DNA of 64,000 bases from Mariprofundus ferrinatatus (GCF_002795825.1 NZ_CP018800.1:682001-746000); one strand, 5' to 3'. Shown: positions 28,718 through 41,903, counted from the stretch's first letter. The notes: a model not told the origin generated them from the sequence alone. Made by a program: numbers and translations.

Positions 28718-29476
28718 ATGAGTGAAGAAATAAAACATTATACGGCCCATTGGCATACCAGTCCTAATCCGTTGCTCGTAGGCTTCGGTGCAGGTCTGTT
28801 CCTACCATTGGCGTTCATGCTGCAGTTTGTTTATGAAATGCAAACAGCAGCTCTGGTTGTTCTGGCAGTTGGTGCCGGCATGACTATTATGGGTGGTCTT
28901 GGCTGGGCAGCTGAAACCATCGGCGTGATTGACGACGAGAACTGGTCTCCATCGGCCATGTTCATGTTTATCGGTACTGAAATCATGACCATCGGCGGCG
29001 TACTGGCCGGCTACTGGGTTGCCCGTCTGGGTGCACCTGTATGGCCACCTGAAGGTACTCCTGCAAACATCGGTGCGAACGAAGCGACTATCGCTACGCT
29101 CATCCTGATCGTATCAAGCTTCACAGTCGGTATTGCACGTAAGAAAGAGCTAAACGGCGATGCTTCCGGATTTGCTACATTCACACTGATCTCAGTCGCG
29201 ATCTGGGTTGTGTTCATGTACATGACAATTTCCGGTTGGTCTGACCTGTCAGCACAGGGCTTCACCATTGGTATTAACGCATTCGCAACATCACTGTACG
29301 GCTTCACCGGTATCCACTTTGCTCACTTGGTAATGGGTATCCTGGTTATGCTGACCTGTGTTCCGTCTGCATTTAAAGGCCGTCTGAGCTTCTCATACAC
29401 CCGCGCCATGAGCATGTATGTTCACTTTGTGAACGTACTGGGCGTTTGGGTGCTGCTCCAGGTTTACTACTGGTAA
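28718..29476 (+). CDS. coxC: cytochrome c oxidase subunit III
   Basis: Membrane protein of 252 residues with seven likely helices. Family segments include WHTSPNPLLVGFGAGLFLPL, WSPSAMFMFIGTEIMTIGGVLAGYW, ITIS-like WSDLSAQGF, GFTGIHFAHLVMG and the C-terminal SMYVHFVNVLGVWVLLQVYYW. It is the non-catalytic subunit that stabilises the oxidase. GAGGAGG precedes the ATG. The gene comes first in the operon (III, SCO-like, II, I), which differs from the common II-I-III order. Codon choice is strongly restricted, as in the other cox genes here. Confidence 0.88.
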   Translation: MSEEIKHYTAHWHTSPNPLLVGFGAGLFLPLAFMLQFVYEMQTAALVVLAVGAGMTIMGGLGWAAETIGVIDDENWSPSAMFMFIGTEIMTIGGVLAGYWVARLGAPVWPPEGTPANIGANEATIATLILIVSSFTVGIARKKELNGDASGFATFTLISVAIWVVFMYMTISGWSDLSAQGFTIGINAFATSLYGFTGIHFAHLVMGILVMLTCVPSAFKGRLSFSYTRAMSMYVHFVNVLGVWVLLQVYYW

Positions 29477-29504: not shown

Positions 29505-30383
29505 TTGAACCTTACCTCCTCATACTCAGCGAAATCGTCATGGTTGAGCCTGCGCAAGCTGGCGCTGACCATGGCGGTTTCCGCTGTAGCCATGTTGGGG
29601 TACGCAAACGGTGCCAATGCCGCATACGGTAATGTCACCAAGGAATCATTGGTTGATCCAAGCATTCTCAAGATCGATGAAATCAAGTTCTTGGGTGAGA
29701 AGGTTGATTACGACTTCGTCCTGCAGGATGAAAGCGGAGCAGACTTCAAGCTGGGCTCAATGATTGGCAAGCCGCTGGTGCTGGCGTTCAGCTACTACAC
29801 CTGCGACGGTGCCTGCTCGGTAATCAATAAAAACCTTGCCGAGACCCTGAAAGGTGTGGAGCGCTGGAAGATTGGTCAGGACTATAATGTGCTGACAGTC
29901 TCTTTCGACCAGAATGATACGCCTGCAACACTTGTGGACTTCATGGAGAAGTCAGGTTTTTCGGGTGGGCAACTGCCATCCGGCTGGAAGATGACCACCA
30001 TGCGGGAGAAAGAGAATATCGAGAAGCTCACGGGTTCCATGGGTTTCAAGTTTTTCTGGTCTCCACGTGATGCCCTGTTCCTGCATCCGAACGTCTATAT
30101 CATGCTGTCCCCGAAAGGGCGGGTAACGCGTTACCTGTATGGCGGTACGATTACCCCGACGGATATGGAGCTGGCCATCACCAAGGCGATGGGTGAGAAA
30201 ATTGCAGCTGCCAACGTGATCGATTTCGTTGTTGGTGCATGTTACAGCTATAACTACAAAGATGGTAAATACACAATCAACATTCCACTTTTCGTCGCTG
30301 CTGGCGGCCTGATTTTCGGACTGTTACTGATTGCTGGAAGTTTTTCGTATATGAAATTTAGGAGGGTAAAACATGAAATTTAA
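29505..30383 (+). CDS. SCO1/SenC-like copper chaperone with C-terminal membrane anchor
   Basis: Protein of 292 residues with an N-terminal signal-like stretch, a thioredoxin-fold domain, and a C-terminal helix (about 262-283) followed by basic residues. The copper site is C100-x3-C104 in YYTCDGAC with His194 in FLHPNVY, as in SCO proteins that supply copper to CuA. It lies between subunits III and II, so it probably serves the neighbouring CuA subunit. The first codon is uncertain: TTG 29505 has no clear ribosome site and ATG 29571 would shorten the signal peptide. The anchor at the C-terminus is unusual, since most SCO proteins are N-terminally anchored. Confidence 0.8.
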   Translation: MNLTSSYSAKSSWLSLRKLALTMAVSAVAMLGYANGANAAYGNVTKESLVDPSILKIDEIKFLGEKVDYDFVLQDESGADFKLGSMIGKPLVLAFSYYTCDGACSVINKNLAETLKGVERWKIGQDYNVLTVSFDQNDTPATLVDFMEKSGFSGGQLPSGWKMTTMREKENIEKLTGSMGFKFFWSPRDALFLHPNVYIMLSPKGRVTRYLYGGTITPTDMELAITKAMGEKIAAANVIDFVVGACYSYNYKDGKYTINIPLFVAAGGLIFGLLLIAGSFSYMKFRRVKHEI

Positions 30384-31155
30384 ATCACTTATGCATAAAG
30401 TGATGGGGGCAATGCTCGCACTGCCTCTGATTCCGTCACTCGCGCATGCGTTCCAGGCTGCACCGGCGCATCGTGCTGACTACAACGGCTGGACCCCGCA
30501 TGAGCACTATGATGCAGTCTGGCACGAAACCATGCTGGATATCACCGTTCTCGGTGTCGTCTTTGCAATCGTCACATTCGCGTTCATGATCATGTACCGT
30601 CGTCACGGTCATGGTGAGCGCGGCAAACTGCCTCACCTTTCCGGTCAGGCAAAAATCGGCTGGGTTGTTATTCCCTGCATGCTGTTCCTGGGCGATGACC
30701 TGTTCCTGTACGTGAAGGGTTTTGATCTGCACAACCACTTCCGTAACGTTCCTGCCGATGCAACTGAAGTGAAACTCACCGGTTCTATGTGGAACTGGAA
30801 CTACGTTGACGTCAACGGTATCGACTCTGATAACGAACTGGTTGTGAAGCAGGGTAGCCCTGTTGTTCTGCGCATGGTTTCTGATGACGTACTGCACTCG
30901 CACTACATGAATCGCTACCGTGTAACAGAAGATCTGATGCCTGGTCGTATCACCTGGCAGTGGTTCATGCCGGATCAGTTGGGCGAGTCTGTTGTTACCT
31001 GTCGTGAGTACTGCGGTACCATGCACTCAGGTATGTACGGCAAGATCAACGTTCTTTCTGCTGAAGACTACGATGCGTACGTAGCTGAGCAGACTGCATC
31101 CGTCCCTGCTGTTACAGGCGTTGCTTCCGCTGCAACCGCTGCAGACAAGATTTAA
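30373..31155 (+). CDS. coxB: cytochrome c oxidase subunit II (CuA)
   Basis: Protein of 260 residues: signal-like N-terminus ending near AHA, two membrane helices (about 53-74 and 95-112), then the periplasmic cupredoxin domain. The CuA site is complete: His in VLHSHYM and CREYCGTMHSGM with Cys, Glu, Cys, His and Met in the right spacing. The aromatic patch SMWNWNYVDV is the electron entry region. It overlaps the SCO-like gene by 11 nt and is preceded by AGGAGGG. There is no heme-binding C-terminal extension, so this is not a caa3 subunit. Confidence 0.93.
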   Translation: MKFKSLMHKVMGAMLALPLIPSLAHAFQAAPAHRADYNGWTPHEHYDAVWHETMLDITVLGVVFAIVTFAFMIMYRRHGHGERGKLPHLSGQAKIGWVVIPCMLFLGDDLFLYVKGFDLHNHFRNVPADATEVKLTGSMWNWNYVDVNGIDSDNELVVKQGSPVVLRMVSDDVLHSHYMNRYRVTEDLMPGRITWQWFMPDQLGESVVTCREYCGTMHSGMYGKINVLSAEDYDAYVAEQTASVPAVTGVASAATAADKI

Positions 31156-31180: not shown

Positions 31181-32863
31181 ATGAGTGGTTTTATGGGACA
31201 TGAGCCGGATGGTAAGCCGGGTCAGCCAAAAACAGTAAAAGAGTGGGTATTTACCCTTGACCATAAGGTCATCGGCGTATGGTACCTGATCGGTGCAATT
31301 GCATCGTTCATCGTTGCAGGTCTTGCAGCATCCGCAATGCGTATCGAGCTGGGCTCCGTAGGTCCGGATATCACAGACAACGGTGATATCTACAACCTGT
31401 GGCTGACCATGCACGGTGCCGTAATGATTCTGGGCTTCCAGATTCCTGCCCTGCTGGGCTTCGTAGCTAACTGGGCTGTGCCTATCATGGTTGGCGGCAA
31501 GGACATGGCGTTCCCTCGTGTAAACGCAATGTCTGTTTGGCTGCTGTGGTCTGGTATCCTGCTGGCTCTGATGAACCTTGTTATTCCTGACTCCTACAAC
31601 GGTATGTGGACCGGCTACCCGCCATACTCCCTGACCGACGCTGTAGGTAACACTGCACTTTACTCGTCAGTAGTAATCATCCTGGGTATGTCTTCCGTAT
31701 TCGGTGCTGTTAACCTGGCCTGTACTGTTGCGTTCATGCGCTGCAAGGGCATGGGCTGGTTCCAGATGCCTCTGACTGTATGGTGCGTATTCACTGCAAA
31801 CGTGATTCAGCTGATCTTCGTACCTGTGCTGGCTGCATCTGTACTGCTGCTGTCTCTGGACAAATACCTCGGCTTCGGTTTCTACAATCCTGAAGTTGGT
31901 GGTGACGTGCTGCTGTACCAGAACCTCTTCTGGTTCTACTCACATCCAGCTGTATACGTGATCCTGCTGCCGTTCATGGGTATCCTGTTCGAGATCTTCG
32001 CAACATCTGCCCGCAACGACGTATTCAACTACAAGGCTACTGTATGGTCGGTAATCGCGTTCATTCCTGTATCTTCTGACGTTTGGGTACATCACGCATA
32101 CGTTGCAGGTCTTCCTGACTGGCTGCGTCTGCTGCAGACATTCACTACCCTGCTGATCTCGCTGCCATTCGGCCTGCTGATGCTGTCACTGACCGGTACC
32201 ATGTACCGCGGTGCTATCCGTTACACCGGTCCAATGTGGTGGGCGGTTGCAGCATTCTTCATGCTGATCATCGGCGCACTGACCGGTATTCCGAACGCAC
32301 TGTCTGCAGTTGACTACGGTATCTCCGACTCTTACGTAATTATGTCTCACTTCCATTACGTAATGGCGGTATCCGGCGGTATGGCGATCTTCGCCGGTGT
32401 ATTCTACTGGTTCCCTAAACTGACCGGTCGTATGTGCAACGAGATGATGACCAAGCTGACTGCTGCTGGTTTCTTCATCGGCATGAACTTGGTAATGGGT
32501 CCACTCTACTTCGCTGGTATCGAAGGTATGCCACGTCGTTACATGGACTACCAGATGTTCGCTGATAACGCGACCATCACTTCAGCTCACCACTGGTCAA
32601 CTATCGGTCTGTACATCACCTTCGTCAGCGCACTGCTGATGATTGTTGTATGGCTGCACGGCGCAATCGCCGGTGAGAAAGCTACCTCTGCGAACCCTTG
32701 GGGTTCTCAGAGCCTGGAATTCACTGCAACTGCAATCATTCCAGGTCAGGGTAACTTCCCGACTCCGGTTAGCGTGCCAGAAGGTTGGCATCCATATAAC
32801 TACATTGATAACCCAGCTCCAGTATTTGAGCCGCATCCCGGCCATACTGGTGGTCATCACTAA
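31181..32863 (+). CDS. coxA: cytochrome c oxidase subunit I, A2-type, without K-channel residues
   Basis: Catalytic subunit of 560 residues with about 12 helices. Heme and CuB ligands are intact: His78 in TMHGAVM, His255 and Tyr259 in YSHPAVY, His304-His305 in VWVHHAY, and His390 and His392 in SHFHYV. YSHPAVY replaces GHPEVY, the mark of A2-type oxidases. The D-channel residues Asn97, Asp108 and Asn115 are kept. A gapless match to the Paracoccus enzyme puts Phe270, Phe330 and Leu333 at S291, T351 and K354 of the K-channel. Ribosome site GAGGAGG. Highly restricted codon use suggests strong expression. A terminator follows. Confidence 0.93.
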   Translation: MSGFMGHEPDGKPGQPKTVKEWVFTLDHKVIGVWYLIGAIASFIVAGLAASAMRIELGSVGPDITDNGDIYNLWLTMHGAVMILGFQIPALLGFVANWAVPIMVGGKDMAFPRVNAMSVWLLWSGILLALMNLVIPDSYNGMWTGYPPYSLTDAVGNTALYSSVVIILGMSSVFGAVNLACTVAFMRCKGMGWFQMPLTVWCVFTANVIQLIFVPVLAASVLLLSLDKYLGFGFYNPEVGGDVLLYQNLFWFYSHPAVYVILLPFMGILFEIFATSARNDVFNYKATVWSVIAFIPVSSDVWVHHAYVAGLPDWLRLLQTFTTLLISLPFGLLMLSLTGTMYRGAIRYTGPMWWAVAAFFMLIIGALTGIPNALSAVDYGISDSYVIMSHFHYVMAVSGGMAIFAGVFYWFPKLTGRMCNEMMTKLTAAGFFIGMNLVMGPLYFAGIEGMPRRYMDYQMFADNATITSAHHWSTIGLYITFVSALLMIVVWLHGAIAGEKATSANPWGSQSLEFTATAIIPGQGNFPTPVSVPEGWHPYNYIDNPAPVFEPHPGHTGGHH

Positions 32864-32983: not shown

Positions 32984-33874
32984 ATGAGTCACTCAATAGC
33001 TGAACAGCAGGTTAGGGTGCGTTCCGCAATCGCGGACTACGTCTCTCTATCCAAGCCCGGTATTGTAGGATTGACCCTTGTTGCTGCGCTGACCGGAATC
33101 TATTTCGGCAATCATGGTGTGATGCCGCACTGGCATCTGATCGGCTGGACATTCCTGACGCTGGGGCTTGCGACTGCAGGTTCCTGTATGCTCAACAACC
33201 ATTACGATCGGGATATCGATCAGCTGATGAAGCGCACGAGCAACCGAGCCCTGGCTGCAGGCGCTGTATCTGCAAATCGTGTTCTTTATGTCTCTTTGAT
33301 TCTTACTGTCGGTTCACTTGCACTGATGGCCTGGGCCGTTAATCCGCTGACAGCGGTTGTTACCGGTGTTGGTGTGGTTGGCTATGTGGGCGTTTACACC
33401 ATGTGGATGAAGCGCAGAACACCCTGGGCCAACCAGTTTGGCGGCATTGCCGGCGCCGTGCCCCCGATGGTTGGTTATGCGGCCGTGACCAACGAACTCG
33501 GTGCTGCTGCGTGGATACTGTTCGCTATCATGGTAGTCTGGCAGCAACCGCATGCACTGAGCTTGGCGCTGAAGTATCGTGGAGATTATGCACGTGCCAA
33601 GGTTCCCGTGATTCCTGTTGCTTGCGGTGTTTATGCCACTAAGCTGCGTATCCTGCTTTATACCATTGCACTGATCCCTGTAGCCATGACACCGTGGTAC
33701 TTCGATATTGCAGGCAGCATCTATCTGGCGGCATCCGTGATTCTGAGTGCAATCTTCCTGTTTATGGCGGTTCGTTTTTACCGTTCAGAACGTGATTGTG
33801 ATATGCGCGTATTTGCCTACTCGATCGTATATCTTATTCTGCTGTTTGGAACCATGGTGATCGACTCCATCTGA
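32984..33874 (+). CDS. ctaB: protoheme IX farnesyltransferase (heme O synthase)
   Basis: UbiA-family prenyltransferase of 296 residues with about nine helices. The Asp-rich site is NNHYDRDIDQLMKRTSNRALAAG, with VMWMKRRTPW-like sequence (here TMWMKRRTPWANQFGGIAGAVPP) and WQQPHALSLALKYRGDYARA. It farnesylates heme B to heme O, the precursor of heme A for the oxidase upstream; the ctaA that completes heme A lies at 40863. AGGGAGAGAGG precedes the ATG at some distance. Confidence 0.94.
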   Translation: MSHSIAEQQVRVRSAIADYVSLSKPGIVGLTLVAALTGIYFGNHGVMPHWHLIGWTFLTLGLATAGSCMLNNHYDRDIDQLMKRTSNRALAAGAVSANRVLYVSLILTVGSLALMAWAVNPLTAVVTGVGVVGYVGVYTMWMKRRTPWANQFGGIAGAVPPMVGYAAVTNELGAAAWILFAIMVVWQQPHALSLALKYRGDYARAKVPVIPVACGVYATKLRILLYTIALIPVAMTPWYFDIAGSIYLAASVILSAIFLFMAVRFYRSERDCDMRVFAYSIVYLILLFGTMVIDSI

Positions 33875-33918: not shown

Positions 33919-34503
33919 ATGCAGCGCGTGCGTATATCATTACTTTATAAATACCTAACAGCTTTGCTTATTGCGGTGACCCTGCTGCTTTCCTCATGTA
34001 CAAGTGAACCGCAAAACGCCAAGGACTTTACTCTTCAATCGGTTGACGGGCCTGTCTCCCTGCACGATTTCAGAGGTAAAACAGTCCTGCTGTTTTTCGG
34101 TTATACCCACTGTCCGGATATCTGTCCTGCAACCATGAACAATGTTGCGATGGCTTTACGCATGCTGAAAGAGCAGGCCAGTCAGGTTCAGGTGCTGTTT
34201 GTGACGGTTGATCCTGAGCGTGACAGTGCCGAACATCTGGCAAAATATGTGGCATTCTTTCACCCCAATATTACAGGTCTTACCGGTACGCCTGAAGAGA
34301 TCAAGAGGGCGGCAGGCGCCTACGATGCGGAATTTTTTAAGCAGGATGCTCAGGATCCGGACGGTTATGAGATGATCCATACCAGTATGCTGTTTATGAT
34401 CAACAGCGAGGGAAAAATTCTCGATATCATGAGCCATCATACCGAACCTGATGATATTGCTATTGCCCTGCGTAACTGGCTTAATTCCGGTTCGGCCGGT
34501 TAA
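33919..34503 (+). CDS. SCO1/SenC family lipoprotein
   Basis: Protein of 194 residues with a lipoprotein signal ending in LSSC (Cys27), then a thioredoxin fold. The copper ligands are CPDIC in FFGYTHCPDICP and the His in IHTSMLFMI. The typical VTVDPERDSAEHLAKYV and GLTG-x-PEE segments are present. It should deliver copper to, or reduce, the CuA site of cytochrome oxidase. It follows ctaB by 44 nt and is probably co-transcribed with it. This is a second, more canonical SCO beside the one inside the cox operon. Confidence 0.92.
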   Translation: MQRVRISLLYKYLTALLIAVTLLLSSCTSEPQNAKDFTLQSVDGPVSLHDFRGKTVLLFFGYTHCPDICPATMNNVAMALRMLKEQASQVQVLFVTVDPERDSAEHLAKYVAFFHPNITGLTGTPEEIKRAAGAYDAEFFKQDAQDPDGYEMIHTSMLFMINSEGKILDIMSHHTEPDDIAIALRNWLNSGSAG

Positions 34504-35423: not shown

Positions 35424-35987
35424 TCAGTACTGCTTCTTGTGGATAGGCAGCTGATACTCCACGTTGCCATCCGGATGATAGATTTCAAAGGCTGGAAGTG
35501 AGAGCTGATAACCGTTGGCGCGCGCCCAGTCTCGCATACCGGTATAAGCCTTATGGGAACCGAGCAGCGTTCCTCCCTCAAATCTCGCAACCACCACCTC
35601 ACGCGATTGAATGGTCATCTGCTCGAGTGGGGCGGGGATGTAGTCACTAGGCCTGATCAGGTATCCGATCTTGCTCTGACGATTCTCCTCTGCAACCTCA
35701 GATACGCTGTCCATATAAAGCGCTGCAGCGGTCAACGGCTCGACATTGGACTCTTTCAGATGCTTGGCCACCTCTTCCAGAATCGGGTCGATCTTGGCAT
35801 ATGAACCTTTATGGTTGATATAAGCCAGGTGATACTCTTTGGTGACACTCCTGTAAACTTCTGGGTCCTTGAAGGCGCCGAGATAGAGCATGACCACTGC
35901 ACCACCACCCAGGGTAAGTGCAAGGCCAATTAGAATAAGGATGAGCATTTTTGAGGTAACTGGTCTCTCTTGGTTGTCTGCTGCCAT
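35424..35987 (-). CDS. membrane-anchored GyrI-like effector-binding domain protein
   Basis: Protein of 187 residues: a short cytoplasmic tail, one hydrophobic helix (about 13-36) and a domain resembling the GyrI/AraC effector-binding (SOUL-type) fold. Clues are YHLAYINHKGSYAKI, a central IGYLI, and the C-terminal FEIYHPDG followed by YQLPIHK. Such domains bind small or amphipathic molecules, but the ligand here is unknown. It is convergent with the cox assembly genes and divergent from the CuA subunit II at 36150. A regulator-type DNA-binding domain is absent. Confidence 0.72.
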   Translation of the reverse strand: MAADNQERPVTSKMLILILIGLALTLGGGAVVMLYLGAFKDPEVYRSVTKEYHLAYINHKGSYAKIDPILEEVAKHLKESNVEPLTAAALYMDSVSEVAEENRQSKIGYLIRPSDYIPAPLEQMTIQSREVVVARFEGGTLLGSHKAYTGMRDWARANGYQLSLPAFEIYHPDGNVEYQLPIHKKQY

Positions 35988-36149: not shown

Positions 36150-36710
36150 ATGAGTCAAGAGAAACCCAATAAAGGGCTGAACTACAAACTTCTGCTGGTA
36201 ACGATTGTCTTCTGCGTTGCTGTGGGTGTACCTGTGGTTATGAATATCAAAGCGAAGAATCCTGATATGACGGTTACCAAGGAGAAGATTACCCGTGAAG
36301 ATCTTGTCGGTTTCCAGGACAAGGTAAAACAGATGGTTGAGACATACACCGTTCGCGTTGAAGGTGAAACTCCGGTTGTGCATCCGCCGGCAGGTTCTGA
36401 TATCTATCTGCTGGCTAAAAACTACGACTGGGGCAACTTCACGCTGGAACTCGAGAAGGGGCAAACCTACCGGTTGCACCTTGCAACACTGGATATGAAA
36501 CATGCCATTGTCGTACGTGAATTGAAGCTTATGAACCGGATCAAGGTGGGTGAGTTTAAAACCCTTGAATTCGCCCCGATCAGGGCGGGTCGCTTTGATA
36601 TCATTTGCGGTGAATTCTGTGGCGCAGGCCATGCCAGCATGGTGGGTTCCATCATTGTGACCGATACCACAGTTGCAGCTCCCGAACAGGGTGTAGCGTC
36701 GCCGCAATGA
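36150..36710 (+). CDS. second CuA-containing oxidase subunit II (single-span type)
   Basis: Protein of 186 residues with one N-terminal helix (about 14-31) and a periplasmic cupredoxin domain. The CuA set is complete: His in LDMKHAIVV and CGEFCGAGHASM with Cys, Glu, Cys, His and Met correctly spaced. The single-helix build resembles subunit II of B-type (ba3) oxidases and of some NO reductases. A divergent subunit I-like gene lies 2.8 kb downstream, and heme A synthase follows that. It should accept electrons from a periplasmic cytochrome or cupredoxin. Confidence 0.88.
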   Translation: MSQEKPNKGLNYKLLLVTIVFCVAVGVPVVMNIKAKNPDMTVTKEKITREDLVGFQDKVKQMVETYTVRVEGETPVVHPPAGSDIYLLAKNYDWGNFTLELEKGQTYRLHLATLDMKHAIVVRELKLMNRIKVGEFKTLEFAPIRAGRFDIICGEFCGAGHASMVGSIIVTDTTVAAPEQGVASPQ

Positions 36711-36771
36711 AAAATTGCAGTTCAAGCCGGATTGAAGCTGAGTTCGGGATAACCAATATAGTGGTGCATTA

Positions 36772-37671
36772 ATGGATCTTCTGTCCAAAGAACATATCGA
36801 TGGCGTCTCCAGACATGATCGGCTGTTTATTCTGAAGCTGGCGGCCGGGGGGATCTTTACCGCACTGGGTGCCTACAAGCTGGGCTTTAATATTGAGCTA
36901 TCCTTTGCTGCACTGGTGTTTGTTCCTGCCATCGGCATGTTTTTCACCTATCTCAAGCAGGAGGCCGATTCCAATATCCTGCGGTGGCTGAGTATTTTTG
37001 TTTTTTCGGCACTGTTTGGAATGTTTGTGGGCTCCTATTATCTCGCGATTGCCGTCTTCCTGTTGATGGAAGGTGCTACACACCATAAGTCGATTACACG
37101 CTGCAGCGATGCCAAGTGGATGCGTATCGTGCGTGCTGAATCATCGATGGATGATCTGCACCGTTTGATTGTTGGCCATTCACTTTTCCATTCACTCTCA
37201 GTTGAAACGCGCCAGAGCCTTGCCGAGCAGTCTACCGTGATGGAGGTCGAACCGGGCGCGGCACTGATTCGAAAAGGTGAGTTCAACTATTATCTGTTCC
37301 TGCTTGCCAAGGGCGAGGCCACTGTCATTCGAAACGGGGAAAATGTCGCCACCCTTCGTTCCGGTGATATTTTCGGCGAAGTCTCTGCTGTCGGCTTGAG
37401 TCTTCCGGTGGCCGATGTGGTGGCCAAAACTGATGCGCTCGCCTTTGCCATTCCGGTTGATGCACTCTGGGCAGTTGTCTCCGAGAATCCTCAGTTTGCC
37501 GTTGAGCTGAGAGAGCTTGGCATGAGCGTTGTTGATATGGCTCTGCCTGCCGAAGAGGCCGAAGCGGTTGCCGATTCCCATCAGCTTTTCGATGATGATG
37601 AAGAGGCAAAAGTGAATGCACTGTTTGATAATGAAGCTGCGCTGAATAAAGACGACGGCAAAGCGGCTTGA
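36772..37671 (+). CDS. membrane protein with cyclic nucleotide-binding-type domain
   Basis: Protein of 299 residues. The first 110 hold three to four membrane helices. A beta-roll domain of the CNB type follows (about 135-250): PGAALIRKGEFNYYLFLLAKGEATVI, LRSGDIFGEVSAVGLSLPVADVVA. In the phosphate-binding cassette the Glu is kept, but the Arg that contacts the cyclic phosphate is Val, so cyclic nucleotide binding is doubtful. The C-terminus is acidic (DDDEEAK). It sits between CuA subunit II and the PAS sensor and could modulate the oxidase-like complex. No function is known. Confidence 0.75.
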   Translation: MDLLSKEHIDGVSRHDRLFILKLAAGGIFTALGAYKLGFNIELSFAALVFVPAIGMFFTYLKQEADSNILRWLSIFVFSALFGMFVGSYYLAIAVFLLMEGATHHKSITRCSDAKWMRIVRAESSMDDLHRLIVGHSLFHSLSVETRQSLAEQSTVMEVEPGAALIRKGEFNYYLFLLAKGEATVIRNGENVATLRSGDIFGEVSAVGLSLPVADVVAKTDALAFAIPVDALWAVVSENPQFAVELRELGMSVVDMALPAEEAEAVADSHQLFDDDEEAKVNALFDNEAALNKDDGKAA

Positions 37672-37684
37672 GCAGGGAGAGCAG

Positions 37685-38734
37685 ATGAAGTCGATTTTCA
37701 GCAGTTGGGCCAGTTTGAGTAAACATGCAGGGGCCATGCTGATGGTTCCCTCTGTTCTGGCTCTTTCTGTTGTCGGATTCTCATTCTTTTCATGGAATAA
37801 GCAGATGGTTCAGGAGGCGCCGCTTCTCGATGTGGTGATGGAGGTGAGGGTGGACCTCGAACATGCCCATCAGCTGCTGTTTAAGATGGAGAAAGATCTT
37901 AATGAACTCCGCTCGGTCAGAGACGACCAGGAGGAACTGGAAACACTCCACAATCGGGTGATTGCCGGAGTCGATGACTTCGTCGCATCCATGCAGACGC
38001 TGAAGAACCATCTCGCGGAACTAAGTGAAGGGACCGCGATGATGGGGTCTGTCACATTGAGTAATATCGAAGTAACAAAGATCAGCGATGATGAACTCGC
38101 GCTCAAAATTGTTGATCTGGAGAATACGATAGAGATTCTTGATGCACACCTTATGCCTGAGCTGCTGGGTGATGCATACCAGGAGTTTGCCTACTCGGAG
38201 CATGATCAGGAGCTCTTTGTCGACGCAATCGATTCTGCAAAGGTTTGTGATGGTCGGGTACACGCCCTGATCAAGGAACGGCTTGATCTTCAGCGCCGCC
38301 TGTTCCTGCTTCTGATCGTCGTATTTTCAGCACTGATCGCCTATATCTTCTTCAAATGGCGTCAACTCAATCGCCAGATGGAAGATAGTCTGGCCGATAT
38401 CTATCTTACTTCTCAGGCAACAGAGCAGTTGCCCGAGCCTGTTCTGATTATCAGCAGCGGTGGTATTATCGAATATGGTAATCCGGCCTATTTTGAGCAG
38501 AGCGGTTTTGGCGCAACAGATGTGATCGGCAAACACCTTTCAACGATTGCTGTTGATGATCACGCCAGCTGGGTCGATGATGTCATCAAAAACAGCAGTG
38601 AGCGGCAGCAGTGGCAGGGGGAGGTTCGTACACTGAATCGACAGGGGGGTAGTTACGGTAGCTTCATCATGAGTTCACCAATTCTTGATCGCACCCTCTC
38701 TCCGACCTTTTTCCTGCTGCGCCAGAACCTCTGA
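37685..38734 (+). CDS. membrane PAS sensor protein without an output domain
   Basis: Protein of 349 residues: an N-terminal helix (about 17-36), a helical periplasmic sensor region (40-195), a second helix (about 205-223) and a cytoplasmic PAS domain (EPVLIISSGGIIEYGNPAYFEQSGFGATDVIGKHL). It ends soon after the PAS domain, with no kinase, GGDEF or methyl-accepting module. It may signal to a separate partner. AGGGAG precedes the ATG. It follows the CNB-fold gene by 13 nt and is probably in one operon with it and subunit II. Confidence 0.8.
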   Translation: MKSIFSSWASLSKHAGAMLMVPSVLALSVVGFSFFSWNKQMVQEAPLLDVVMEVRVDLEHAHQLLFKMEKDLNELRSVRDDQEELETLHNRVIAGVDDFVASMQTLKNHLAELSEGTAMMGSVTLSNIEVTKISDDELALKIVDLENTIEILDAHLMPELLGDAYQEFAYSEHDQELFVDAIDSAKVCDGRVHALIKERLDLQRRLFLLLIVVFSALIAYIFFKWRQLNRQMEDSLADIYLTSQATEQLPEPVLIISSGGIIEYGNPAYFEQSGFGATDVIGKHLSTIAVDDHASWVDDVIKNSSERQQWQGEVRTLNRQGGSYGSFIMSSPILDRTLSPTFFLLRQNL

Positions 38735-38751
38735 GCCCCATCTGACTGAAG

Positions 38752-39339
38752 CTACTGTTCATCGTTGGCTGTAAACATTTTCTGCAATACCCTGTGTCCT
38801 TTGATCTGGTGTAGCAGTGCCATCAACAGGTGGCCAACAACAAAGAACCAAAGTGTAGTTCCAAGCAGTTCATGGAGTTCCTTAATGGTATGAACTGCGG
38901 GGGGCATACCACCGTCATGTTTCATGCCGAGATAGATGATCGAGCCGGTCAATCCCAGTCCTGTTGCCAGCATCAGCCCAAGACCGTGTACTGTACCTGC
39001 AATCAGGTGCGCCTGTTCAGGAGGAGGGAGGACCCCTTTAAACCAGCCGGGAATATCGCATTTTATCTCAGTAATGAGCGACTTGCGCTTCGCAGGATCG
39101 AGCCATGGAAAAAGGCGAAGCCTGCTTTCATCTCGGTCCAGCACAGTCATCAGGTAGGCAATGGCAACAATCAGTACAACAAAACCTCCGAACTGATGAA
39201 TCGAAAAGATAAACCCGGCCAGCTGATCAATCGCCTTTCCGGGTTTGGGAACCTGCATGAACTGCTCACTTAGCAGCTGTGCGAGAACTGTGAGCATGAG
39301 CAGGATGTGGAGGATTCGGGTACTCTTTTCATATTTCAT
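38752..39339 (-). CDS. cytochrome b561-type membrane protein
   Basis: Integral membrane protein of about 195 residues with four helices and well-placed His: RILHILLMLTV in helix 1, SIHQFGG in helix 2, TVHGLGLMLATGL in helix 3 and VVGHLLMALLHQIKGH in helix 4. This is the pattern of the bacterial di-heme cytochrome b561 family. It may pass electrons between quinol and periplasmic carriers. The ATG at 39339 (MKYEKS) is preferred; one at 39357 adds six residues. It is inserted on the opposite strand between the two halves of the second oxidase-like cluster. Confidence 0.82.
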   Translation of the reverse strand: MKYEKSTRILHILLMLTVLAQLLSEQFMQVPKPGKAIDQLAGFIFSIHQFGGFVVLIVAIAYLMTVLDRDESRLRLFPWLDPAKRKSLITEIKCDIPGWFKGVLPPPEQAHLIAGTVHGLGLMLATGLGLTGSIIYLGMKHDGGMPPAVHTIKELHELLGTTLWFFVVGHLLMALLHQIKGHRVLQKMFTANDEQ

Positions 39340-39495
39340 AATCGCCAATATCCACATAATCGAGCCATTTGGAAAGTAATAAATAGCCCGGCTCTTCTAG
39401 TATATTGCCAGATAAATCTGCTGCGCTTGATGGCGGCGGGTGTTAGGATGCGCGCCCAAAATTGATGCATCTATTAACGCAGAACAGGATTTATC

Positions 39496-40866
39496 ATGAC
39501 GACAAAATACTCCCTGCCGATATCCGAATCTCATCAGACTCAGCTGGCTGTTGGCTGGCTCTATGTGGCCGTCGGCTTTCTGCTCGCTTCCGGCATCTAT
39601 CCGCTGCTTCTGGCACTGGCCAGGACCACCTATGAGATGCCGTGGAAAGATTTCTTCTACACAGCCCTTGTGCTGCATGTGGACTTTACGGTGCTCTGGT
39701 GGCTGATCGCCATTGCCGGTGTTTTCTGGACGCTGAATACCAGTAGTCGTCAGGTGATGACCGGCTGGCTCTCACTGCTTCTGGTTGTGGGCGGTGGCAT
39801 TATTATCGGTGTTTCACCTCTGACCGGTGATGCCAATCCACTGACCAACAACTACATTCCGATGCTGGAAAACAAGATATTCATCAAGGGGCTGATTGTC
39901 TTTGGTGGTGGTGTTCTGCTGCTGGTACTGCGCAGCATGTGGGCGCTCGAATGCAGCAAGTCACGTCAAGTGAGCGGCGAGGGTGCCATCCGTTTCGGCA
40001 CTCTGACAGCAGCAATTGCTGCGCTGATTGCAATGATCGCACTGATCTGGAGCTTTACAGATGCGCCTGTTTCCCAAGGCCGCTCCTACTACGAAAGTCT
40101 CTACTGGGCAGGCGGACATATTCTGCAGTTTGCCCACACCGCGCTACTCTGCGTTTCCTGGCTCTGGATTGCCCAGGCCTGTGGTCTTGAGATAAAAGCA
40201 AAGCCGATCTACCTGATGGCAGCATTTGCCATCGGTGTGGCACCGGTATTGATGATGCCGTGGCCATTCCTGAGCTACGATATTGGTGGTCCGGAATTTA
40301 TGAGCTGGTATGTCTGGCTGATGCGTGATGGCAATGGTGTGGCGCCACTGCTGATCGGCCTGCCTGTGGTATGGGCACTGCTCACCCAACCGGCTGCAGA
40401 AAAGGGTTCTCGCCATCTCTATATGGCACTGCTCTTCTCGATTGTTCTCTTTGCTATGGGTGGCATGCTCGGTCTGTTTATTGGTGAAAGCAGCACGCTG
40501 ATTACAGCGCACTACCATGGTTCGATTGTATCCGTGACCATGGCGTTTATGGCAATGACCTACTACTGGCTGCCGAAATTCGGCTTTGCAAACGTTAACC
40601 TGAAATGGGCGCGCATTCAGGTTTACGCTTATGCGATTGGCCAGATCCTTCACATCGTGGGCCTTGCCTGGGGCGGTGGCCACGGCATGAAGCGCAAGGT
40701 GGTTGGCACCACGCAGGATATCGGGGTACAGGCGGTGCTTACGCCGCAGGACCTTGTTGGCGTTGGTGGCGTGATAGCAGTTCTTTCGGGTGTTCTGTTC
40801 GCCATCGTGGTTCTGCCGGTGATGCTGAAAGGGCGTAAAATGATGCGTGAGGAAGCCCGGTCATGA
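39496..40866 (+). CDS. divergent heme-copper oxidase/NO reductase superfamily subunit I
   Basis: Polytopic protein of 456 residues, about 12 helices. The heme ligands appear intact: His61 in LHVDFTVLWWL and His339/His341 in TAHYHGSIVS. In helix VI a His is present (His208 in WAGGHILQF), but the Tyr four residues on, cross-linked in oxidases, is Phe212. The HH pair expected in helix VII is not found; the region reads WYVWLMRDGNGVAP. The helix-II motif resembles NO reductases. With a CuA subunit and ctaA nearby, it could be one of the non-canonical NOR families or a modified oxidase. The ctaA gene overlaps it by 4 nt. Confidence 0.8.
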   Translation: MTTKYSLPISESHQTQLAVGWLYVAVGFLLASGIYPLLLALARTTYEMPWKDFFYTALVLHVDFTVLWWLIAIAGVFWTLNTSSRQVMTGWLSLLLVVGGGIIIGVSPLTGDANPLTNNYIPMLENKIFIKGLIVFGGGVLLLVLRSMWALECSKSRQVSGEGAIRFGTLTAAIAALIAMIALIWSFTDAPVSQGRSYYESLYWAGGHILQFAHTALLCVSWLWIAQACGLEIKAKPIYLMAAFAIGVAPVLMMPWPFLSYDIGGPEFMSWYVWLMRDGNGVAPLLIGLPVVWALLTQPAAEKGSRHLYMALLFSIVLFAMGGMLGLFIGESSTLITAHYHGSIVSVTMAFMAMTYYWLPKFGFANVNLKWARIQVYAYAIGQILHIVGLAWGGGHGMKRKVVGTTQDIGVQAVLTPQDLVGVGGVIAVLSGVLFAIVVLPVMLKGRKMMREEARS

Positions 40867-41903
40867 GCGATATCGATCAGATCAGAAATGACAGGCAGAT
40901 CGCCTACTGGCTGCTTTTTGTATGTGCGGCGATTTTCATCATGCTGGTGATTGGCGGCGCAACCAGGCTGACCCATTCAGGCCTTTCCATGATGACATGG
41001 GACCCTCTTATGGGCTGGATCCCGCCACTTTCTGAGGCCGCATGGCTGGAGTCATTTAAACACTACAAGCAGATTCCTGAGTTTTATGAGCTCAATCCGG
41101 ATATGGATCTGGAAGGATACAAAGGCATCTTTATGCTTGAGTATATCCATCGTGTGTGGGGACGCCTGATCGGTATATTCTTCCTGCTGCCGTTTCTCTA
41201 TTTCCTTTTTGCAGGAAAGATTCGCAAATCTCTGCGTACCCAGCTGATCACCATGTTTGCTCTCGGCGGACTGCAGGGTTTGCTGGGCTGGTATATGGTG
41301 AGCAGTGGTTTCGATCAGGCCTATGTAAGCCAGTATCGACTGACCGCTCACCTGATGGCCGCATTCGTGATTTTTGCCTATATCCTCTGGGTGGCTGCAG
41401 GACTTCTTTTTCCACGCCGTGAACCATCACTCTACAGCGTTAAGCCGCTCTTCATGGCCGTTGCAGGTGTGACTGCCCTGATTGCCCTGACCGTGGCTGC
41501 TGGTGGCTTTGTAGCGGGTCTGAAGGCTGGATTTGCCTATAACACCTTCCCGTTGATGGATGGTCACTTTGTTCCCGAAGGCTATGGTATGCTGCAGCCT
41601 TTCTATCTGAACTGGTTTGAGAATATTGCTGCGGTTCAGTTCAATCACCGGCTACTGGCTGAAACAGTATTGTTGCTGGTGATCGGGCTCTGGTTCTACG
41701 CCAAGCGTTTTGAACTGCATGGTCCCGCCAAGATCGGTATTCACCTGATGTTCGGCATGGTGATGATACAGTTCTCGCTTGGCCTTGCGACGCTGCTCTC
41801 GGTTGTCCAGCTACACCTTGGTGTCGCTCATCAGGGAGGCGCGATGCTTCTTTTCGCCTTCTCGCTGTTTACCCTGCGGATGCTTCAGTCAACTGAAAAG
41901 TAG
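40863..41903 (+). CDS. ctaA: heme A synthase (CtaA/Cox15)
   Basis: Integral membrane protein of 346 residues with eight helices that converts heme O to heme A. Seen are GGATRLTHSGLSMMTWDPLMGWIPP, YIHRVWGRLIG, GGLQGLLGWYMV, RLTAHLMAA, the second half FNHRLLAETVLL and LHLGVAHQGGAMLL. This is the longer proteobacterial/mitochondrial class. The ATG overlaps the end of the divergent subunit I gene by 4 nt, so the two are translationally coupled, which implies that the complex carries heme A. It can also serve the A2-type oxidase at 28.7-32.9 kb. Confidence 0.94.
   Translation: MSDIDQIRNDRQIAYWLLFVCAAIFIMLVIGGATRLTHSGLSMMTWDPLMGWIPPLSEAAWLESFKHYKQIPEFYELNPDMDLEGYKGIFMLEYIHRVWGRLIGIFFLLPFLYFLFAGKIRKSLRTQLITMFALGGLQGLLGWYMVSSGFDQAYVSQYRLTAHLMAAFVIFAYILWVAAGLLFPRREPSLYSVKPLFMAVAGVTALIALTVAAGGFVAGLKAGFAYNTFPLMDGHFVPEGYGMLQPFYLNWFENIAAVQFNHRLLAETVLLLVIGLWFYAKRFELHGPAKIGIHLMFGMVMIQFSLGLATLLSVVQLHLGVAHQGGAMLLFAFSLFTLRMLQSTEK

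Follow-up and report, generated by a model that had tools for sequence, protein, structure and literature searches.

The window analyzed here, 64,000 nucleotides from the genome of the iron-oxidizing bacterium Mariprofundus ferrinatatus, encodes, besides an ordinary aa3 oxidase, a second protein with the fold and heme ligands of subunit I of the heme-copper (HCO) superfamily, from which the histidine pair of helix VII is missing. Relatives with the same loss form one clade, and most of their genes lie close to those of an aa3 oxidase or of eNOR. Our best explanation, put forward tentatively and as possible rather than probable, is that the protein is a dedicated CuB-less diheme paralogue of HCO subunit I, serving a heme A-type HCO as a partner in assembly or heme A handling.

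Gene Content of the Window

The genome of M. ferrinatatus is closed (2.30 Mb) and contains only two genes of the COX1 family, CoxA and the CuB-less gene. The aa3 genes form a run in the order COX3-SCO-CoxB-CoxA-CtaB-SCO. The features are as follows (positions in the window):

28718-29476, plus strand: COX3 of the aa3 cluster (Pfam)
29505-30383, plus strand: SCO-like protein of the aa3 cluster (Pfam)
30373-31155, plus strand: CoxB with CuA, aa3 cluster (Pfam; NCBIfam CoxB)
31181-32863, plus strand: CoxA of an ordinary A-family aa3 oxidase (HPAVY, HH), proposed as cognate to the CuB-less protein
32984-33874, plus strand: CtaB heme O synthase (Pfam UbiA)
33919-34503, plus strand: SCO (Pfam SCO1-SenC)
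36150-36710, plus strand: short CuA-type subunit II, 186 amino acids, one N-terminal hydrophobic segment (CuA motif at residues 153-164)
36772-37671, plus strand: membrane protein with a cyclic-nucleotide-binding domain (Pfam cNMP_binding, 5.5e-12)
37685-38734, plus strand: PAS-domain protein (Pfam PAS, 2.9e-07)
38752-39357, minus strand: cytochrome b561 family protein (Pfam Ni_hydr_CYTB, 4.5e-21)
39496-40866, plus strand: CuB-less HCO-like subunit I, 456 amino acids (Pfam COX1, 7.9e-17; 82-sequence alignment; AF2 model)
40863-41903, plus strand: CtaA heme A synthase (Pfam COX15-CtaA, 7e-98)

The alignment gives HPAVY and VHH as the motifs of CoxA. Passages on M. ferrinatatus CP-8 report aa3 as present and the cbb3 oxidase as absent (PMC5513912). 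Genome searches return no match to SURF1 (PF02104), no Cox11, and no eNOR, NirS or NirK above the cut-off.

The preliminary description of this DNA treated positions 36150-41903 as one oxidase-like system. This does not hold, since three genes (cNMP-binding, PAS and, on the other strand, cytochrome b561) separate subunit II from subunit I, and in our neighborhood comparison they are confined to the closest Mariprofundus loci. The same description drew attention to the heme A synthase beside the unusual protein. The gene is indeed there, its start overlapping the stop of subunit I by four bases. As the single match in a genome search, however, it is the sole heme A synthase gene of the organism and must serve the aa3 oxidase (31181-32863) too; adjacency to CtaA alone is therefore rejected as proof of heme A in the CuB-less protein. 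Across the family, CtaA is the direct neighbor in only 13 of 91 loci.

Directly upstream of the CuA subunit gene lies a gene on the minus strand (35424-35987) for a GyrI-like small-molecule-binding protein whose N-terminal part includes a hydrophobic segment; this arrangement is conserved in Zetaproteobacteria (cluster c24).

The Active Site of the CuB-less Subunit I

The only Pfam match of the protein is COX1 (PF00115, 7.9e-17, above the cut-off). Its AF2 model (mean pLDDT 86, pTM 0.90) has the fold of HCO subunit I, with TM-scores of up to 0.76 against the PDB and HCOs only among the top 50 matches, so that both the 12-TM subunit I and the COX1 profile that define the superfamily are present. 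The three heme histidines noticed at the outset are H61 in helix II and H339 and H341 in helix X (HYH), and all are kept in 82 of 82 aligned relatives. The Phe reported at the position of the cross-linked Tyr is F212; 79 of the 82 relatives also have Phe there, the rest Ile, Tyr and Met.

The HH pair is likewise missing from the helix VII columns (236-266) in every one of the 82 relatives, as had been said of this protein. The segment cited for it, WYVWLMRDGNG (271-281), is the wrong place: alignment with CoxA, B-family oxidases and eNOR puts the HH columns at W256-P257, within MPWPF. Conserved at this site instead are P255 (76 of 82) and Tyr or Phe at 258 (81 of 82). We looked for intact copper ligands lost through misalignment and found none in three alignments, and we reject misalignment of the HH pair as an explanation. 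The statement that no CuB site can be recognized needs qualification. The two helix VII histidines are gone, but the helix VI ligand H208 (GGHxLQF) is invariant in the 82 relatives, as is Q211. The CuB site is thus degenerate rather than wholly erased, one ligand being kept and two lost across the family, and four of the six histidines of the superfamily sextet (61, 208, 339 and 341) are present.

It follows from established HCO biochemistry that, without the helix VII pair, there can be no ordinary CuB or FeB center and no standard reduction of O2 or NO. We infer that two hemes are almost certainly bound, one low-spin with bis-His ligation and one high-spin with H339 proximal and H208/Q211 distal; a heme type can be assigned only provisionally.

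The reading frame of the gene is undisturbed, and a dN/dS of 0.08-0.13 against four relatives indicates purifying selection. These values and the conservation of the protein reject a pseudogene. M. ferrinatatus does have an eNOR-like CuA subunit II while lacking eNOR itself, as might be the case if an eNOR-like enzyme had been lost and the CuB-less gene were what is left of it, in decay. This reading is largely refuted and has hardly any probability left, given the intact frame, the low dN/dS and a ligand pattern shared by 82 relatives of several phyla.

A Separate Clade of the Superfamily

A genome scan for relatives yielded at least 572 confirmed loci, of which 80 were kept, from Zeta-, Gamma- and Betaproteobacteria, Nitrospirota and Nitrospinota. 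Among the matches listed, the nearest named relatives are from Mariprofundus (82-88% identical). In a maximum-likelihood tree, in which long-branch effects are possible, all members fall into a single clade, whose long stem attaches on the eNOR side with a support of 99; the A, B and C oxidases lie apart. It has no name of its own in Pfam beyond COX1, in NCBIfam or in the PDB: NCBIfam holds no equivalog, distant members match no NCBIfam model, and neither single-sequence nor profile search finds a solved relative in the PDB. A search of plasmids found no CuB-less protein. The published passages on Zetaproteobacteria and Gallionellaceae that we consulted report eNOR and aa3 and do not describe the protein. 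In one distant lineage, in the class of genome G060, C-terminal TPR repeats are fused to the HCO-like domain, giving proteins of 640-938 amino acids (L018:1459-3378, L171:6270-9086), which suggests protein contacts.

How does the protein compare with known families? It resembles aa3 subunit I in fold, heme ligands, gene neighborhood and, in Zetaproteobacteria, a CuA partner; it differs in lacking the CuB histidine pair and the cross-linked Tyr and in its separate clade. In the C family of oxygen reductases the cross-linked Tyr lies elsewhere; with F212 and no HH pair, the protein lacks the features of oxygen reductases of all three families. To eNOR, a B-family-related NO reductase with a CuA subunit II and the nearest clade, it is similar in having GHxxQ in helix VI, in the similar short CuA subunit II and in often sharing an operon, with CtaB, SCO and CtaA. 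However, eNOR has SSQQ (Gln at the Tyr position), the helix VII HH pair and about 580 amino acids, whereas the CuB-less protein has xLQF, no HH pair and about 455 amino acids (here HILQF, against HSSQQ or HGAQQ), in a genome without eNOR. The Glu, the full set of three FeB histidines and the cytochrome c or fused quinol domain of cNOR and qNOR are not found, and the accompanying subunit carries CuA rather than heme c.

The preliminary description had suggested, as one possibility, a NO reductase of a non-cNOR kind. In described NO reductases the Tyr is replaced by Glu, Gln, Asp or Asn, and at most one metal histidine is lost, to Asp (PMC3475470, PMC8756737). With Phe at this position and two metal histidines gone, the suggestion fails for the described families; sNOR and CuANOR (bNOR), with Asn, and gNOR, with Asp (PMC8756737, Table A4), are set apart by their descriptions. 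A search for a clean match to a characterized family found none among the oxygen reductases, cNOR and qNOR, eNOR, sNOR, gNOR and CuANOR. Murali et al. proposed sNOR, gNOR and nNOR besides eNOR (as cited in passages of PMC11388526), and the protein might belong to such a proposed, sparsely described family, for example nNOR. We consider this very unlikely, since gNOR and sNOR have Asp and Asn where Phe stands here (PMC8756737) and the loss of two of three metal histidines is not described for NO reductases in the literature consulted (PMC3475470). Against the families compared, it is apparently a new and undescribed CuB-less clade of the HCO superfamily.

Gene Neighborhoods and Co-occurrence

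Forty-eight loci are well covered (at least 6 kb on both sides). In 41 of them another HCO is encoded within 8 kb (eNOR in 33, CoxA in 8), and CtaB is present in nearly all. The partner depends on the lineage: eNOR in Beta- and Gammaproteobacteria; aa3 in Zetaproteobacteria, Nitrospirota and Nitrospinota, where the gene lies near CoxA and CtaB; and both kinds in the class of G060. In Zetaproteobacteria CtaA directly follows the CuB-less gene. The usual order in Beta- and Gammaproteobacteria is CuA subunit II, eNOR subunit I (GHSSQQ, AHH), CtaB, SCO, a cytochrome b-[4Fe-4S]x2-FlpD fusion, a 171-amino-acid protein and, at the end of the operon, the CuB-less protein; nirS, NirDL and NirJ genes often adjoin. 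The aa3 context is scattered across the family tree, which implies that partners were exchanged more than once.

Two members of these eNOR operons are of interest in themselves. The fusion of a cytochrome b to two [4Fe-4S] domains and a FlpD/MvhD domain is a standard member (L059:7913-9508, L133:9558-11138), and the conserved 171-amino-acid protein has no Pfam match (L068:9425-9940); together they suggest an unrecognized electron donor to eNOR. The small protein is rejected as a dedicated partner of the CuB-less protein, since a 172-amino-acid protein takes the same place in a Defluviimonas eNOR operon without the CuB-less gene. The plasmid-borne eNORs of Thermus and Defluviimonas have no neighboring CuB-less gene. 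An alphaproteobacterial plasmid (NZ_CP156080.1, L133) carries an eNOR operon with hemerythrin but without the CuB-less gene.

Does the protein occur together with these enzymes at the level of whole genomes? Eleven of 41 zetaproteobacterial genomes encode it. All 11 have aa3 (a long A-family CoxA, about 530-567 amino acids, 380-412 bits), against none of the 30 others (Fisher p-value about 3e-10, kinship ignored). Genomes G034 and G036, which have both aa3 and eNOR, carry two copies each, the second 42-43% identical to the protein of the window; in G036 this second copy shares a contig with eNOR. Among 30 genomes of the class of G060, aa3 or eNOR is found in 22 of 23 carriers and in one of six clear non-carriers, by a hand tally in which aa3 and eNOR were split by length and score and G075 has only a fragment. 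The exception is G080, a carrier in which neither aa3 nor eNOR was detected.

The link to NO that the preliminary description had proposed is visible in the eNOR operons and nirS genes of Beta- and Gammaproteobacteria and is missing from this genome, with no eNOR, no NirS and no NirK above the cut-off. NO metabolism as the sole general link is rejected, since zetaproteobacterial carriers have no NirK above the cut-off. For the same reason, and for want of NirS in M. ferrinatatus, we think it unlikely that the protein is an enzyme of a new kind, catalyzing NO reduction, NO dismutation, peroxide reduction or a similar reaction at its high-spin heme without copper. The linkage to eNOR and nirS clusters speaks for such an enzyme, as does the plausible electron path through CuA and two hemes. 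Against it, the helices in the 82-sequence alignment contain few conserved polar residues that could deliver protons, and to our knowledge single-metal heme sites in the HCO fold do not reduce O2 or NO efficiently. The putative NO dismutases, qNOR relatives with a fused quinol-type N-terminus, share the HCO fold, changed active-site residues and a possible link to NO, and differ by that N-terminal domain, which is absent here. The changed amino acids of the proposed NO dismutases (PMC6094997) count in favor of a copper-free enzyme. A more specific proposal, which we judge quite unlikely, is a clade of HCO-fold heme enzymes with neither Cu nor Fe at the CuB site, which would be fed through CuA and the low-spin heme. 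Their substrate, be it NO, peroxide or some other small ligand, would be converted at the heme next to the invariant His and Gln, in coordination with the neighboring aa3 or eNOR.

The CuA Subunit

Subunit II has the complete set of CuA ligands, as first described: the motif CGEFCGAGHASM at residues 153-164 and an upstream His (DMKH). It is 35-46% identical to the eNOR-type subunit II of relatives. All 11 zetaproteobacterial carriers have a short CuA subunit II; none was found in carriers G042 and G060. In two genomes the matches to the CuA gene contain one internal stop codon (TAA, TGA; G023:C7:20989-21462, G036:C33:11054-11584), for which sequencing error, frameshift or match boundary are all possible reasons.

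The co-inheritance of the CuA subunit in Zetaproteobacteria raises the idea of an electron-transferring, ligand-binding accessory subunit, in which electrons would pass from CuA to the low-spin heme and to a high-spin heme without copper. By binding O2 or NO at the latter, the subunit would regulate or protect the neighboring aa3 or eNOR without turnover. The invariance of all heme ligands agrees with this idea, and so does that of H208 and Q211, which, we infer, are reminiscent of ligand-stabilizing distal residues in other heme proteins. PAS and cNMP-binding genes lie near by in Mariprofundus, but they are not conserved; further, the two subunit I genes of eNOR clusters are accompanied by a single CuA gene, and G042 and G060 yielded no short CuA subunit. 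On balance this role seems somewhat unlikely.

Comparison with SURF1

SURF1 is an insertion factor for heme A. By homology the protein is not a SURF1, as it matches COX1 and not PF02104. The two are unrelated in sequence and fold, SURF1 consisting of two TM helices and a large outer domain (PMC9145763). The likeness is in their distribution: they occur with aa3 in mutual exclusion, apparently with one copy per cognate enzyme. SURF1 is present in 10 of 61 related genomes; all 10 encode aa3, and the CuB-less protein is absent from each of them. The 24 aa3-bearing relatives accordingly comprise 14 with the CuB-less protein and no SURF1 and 10 with SURF1 and no CuB-less protein. This exclusion predicts that aa3-linked carriers elsewhere lack SURF1. 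Indeed it is absent from five of five in other lineages (L030, L031, L032, L076, L095), weak evidence since these are draft genomes of uncertain completeness. SURF1 is present in 27 of 50 named, mostly eNOR-linked carrier genomes, which would fit one factor per enzyme without proving it. In Paracoccus there is one Surf1 per oxidase, Surf1c and Surf1q (PMC9145763).

Co-occurrence and one copy per enzyme thus fit a SURF1-type role, yet lineage and oxidase subtype confound the exclusion: the CuB-less set comes from few classes, and where the CoxA motif was read it is HPEVY in SURF1 genomes against YSHPAVY in CuB-less genomes. We know of no CuB-less protein in Bacillota. These also lack SURF1 (PMC9145763), and hence such a factor is not always needed.

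Discussion

What might the CuB-less protein do? As the usual binuclear heme-copper center is impossible, it would not be an O2 or NO reductase of a known kind. Made beside CtaB, CtaA and SCO, it may help to load heme A into, or to assemble, its cognate HCO, which would be aa3 here and eNOR in many Beta- and Gammaproteobacteria. It may take the place of SURF1 in these lineages, one copy per cognate enzyme; the two would then be equivalent in role. The preliminary description had also allowed for another job than that of a NO reductase. Service to heme A-type HCOs is the form of this idea that we favor; nothing found favors sensing or the oxidation of a small molecule.

Several computed observations favor such a partner: the HCO fold, the invariant heme ligands, the absence of HH from all 82 relatives and monophyly on the eNOR side; the linkage in 41 of 48 loci, the co-occurrence (11 of 11 versus 0 of 30; 22 of 23) and the two copies in genomes with both aa3 and eNOR; and the recurrent aa3 context in the family tree, the SURF1 exclusion (10 versus 14) and its prediction in five of five aa3-linked carriers. 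The single Surf1 per oxidase in Paracoccus (PMC9145763) and the TPR-fused members point the same way. Against it stand the confounding of the SURF1 pattern, the Bacillota, SURF1 in 27 of 50 mostly eNOR-linked carriers, the Thermus and Defluviimonas plasmid eNORs without a neighboring gene, and G080. Moreover, both heme sites are perfectly kept, which goes beyond the apparent needs of a simple chaperone, and the CuA subunit co-inherited in Zetaproteobacteria hints at electron input. A protein-level partnership and a role in assembly are possible rather than probable. Given the strict retention of the heme sites and the zetaproteobacterial CuA partner, the protein may instead act in electron transfer or in catalysis without copper.

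In practical terms the family is an annotation trap, as surveys can count its members as oxidases or NO reductases. Within the respiratory superfamily that has been studied most, it is a widespread branch that has lost the defining metal pair, has kept both heme sites unchanged and travels with working heme A enzymes. According to a recent review, the route of heme A from CtaA to subunit I is an open question and the role of SURF1 is still unclear (PMC9145763). If the CuB-less protein is a helper in heme A insertion, it would bear on this transfer; if it is catalytic, it would break the rule that the HCO fold needs a second metal.
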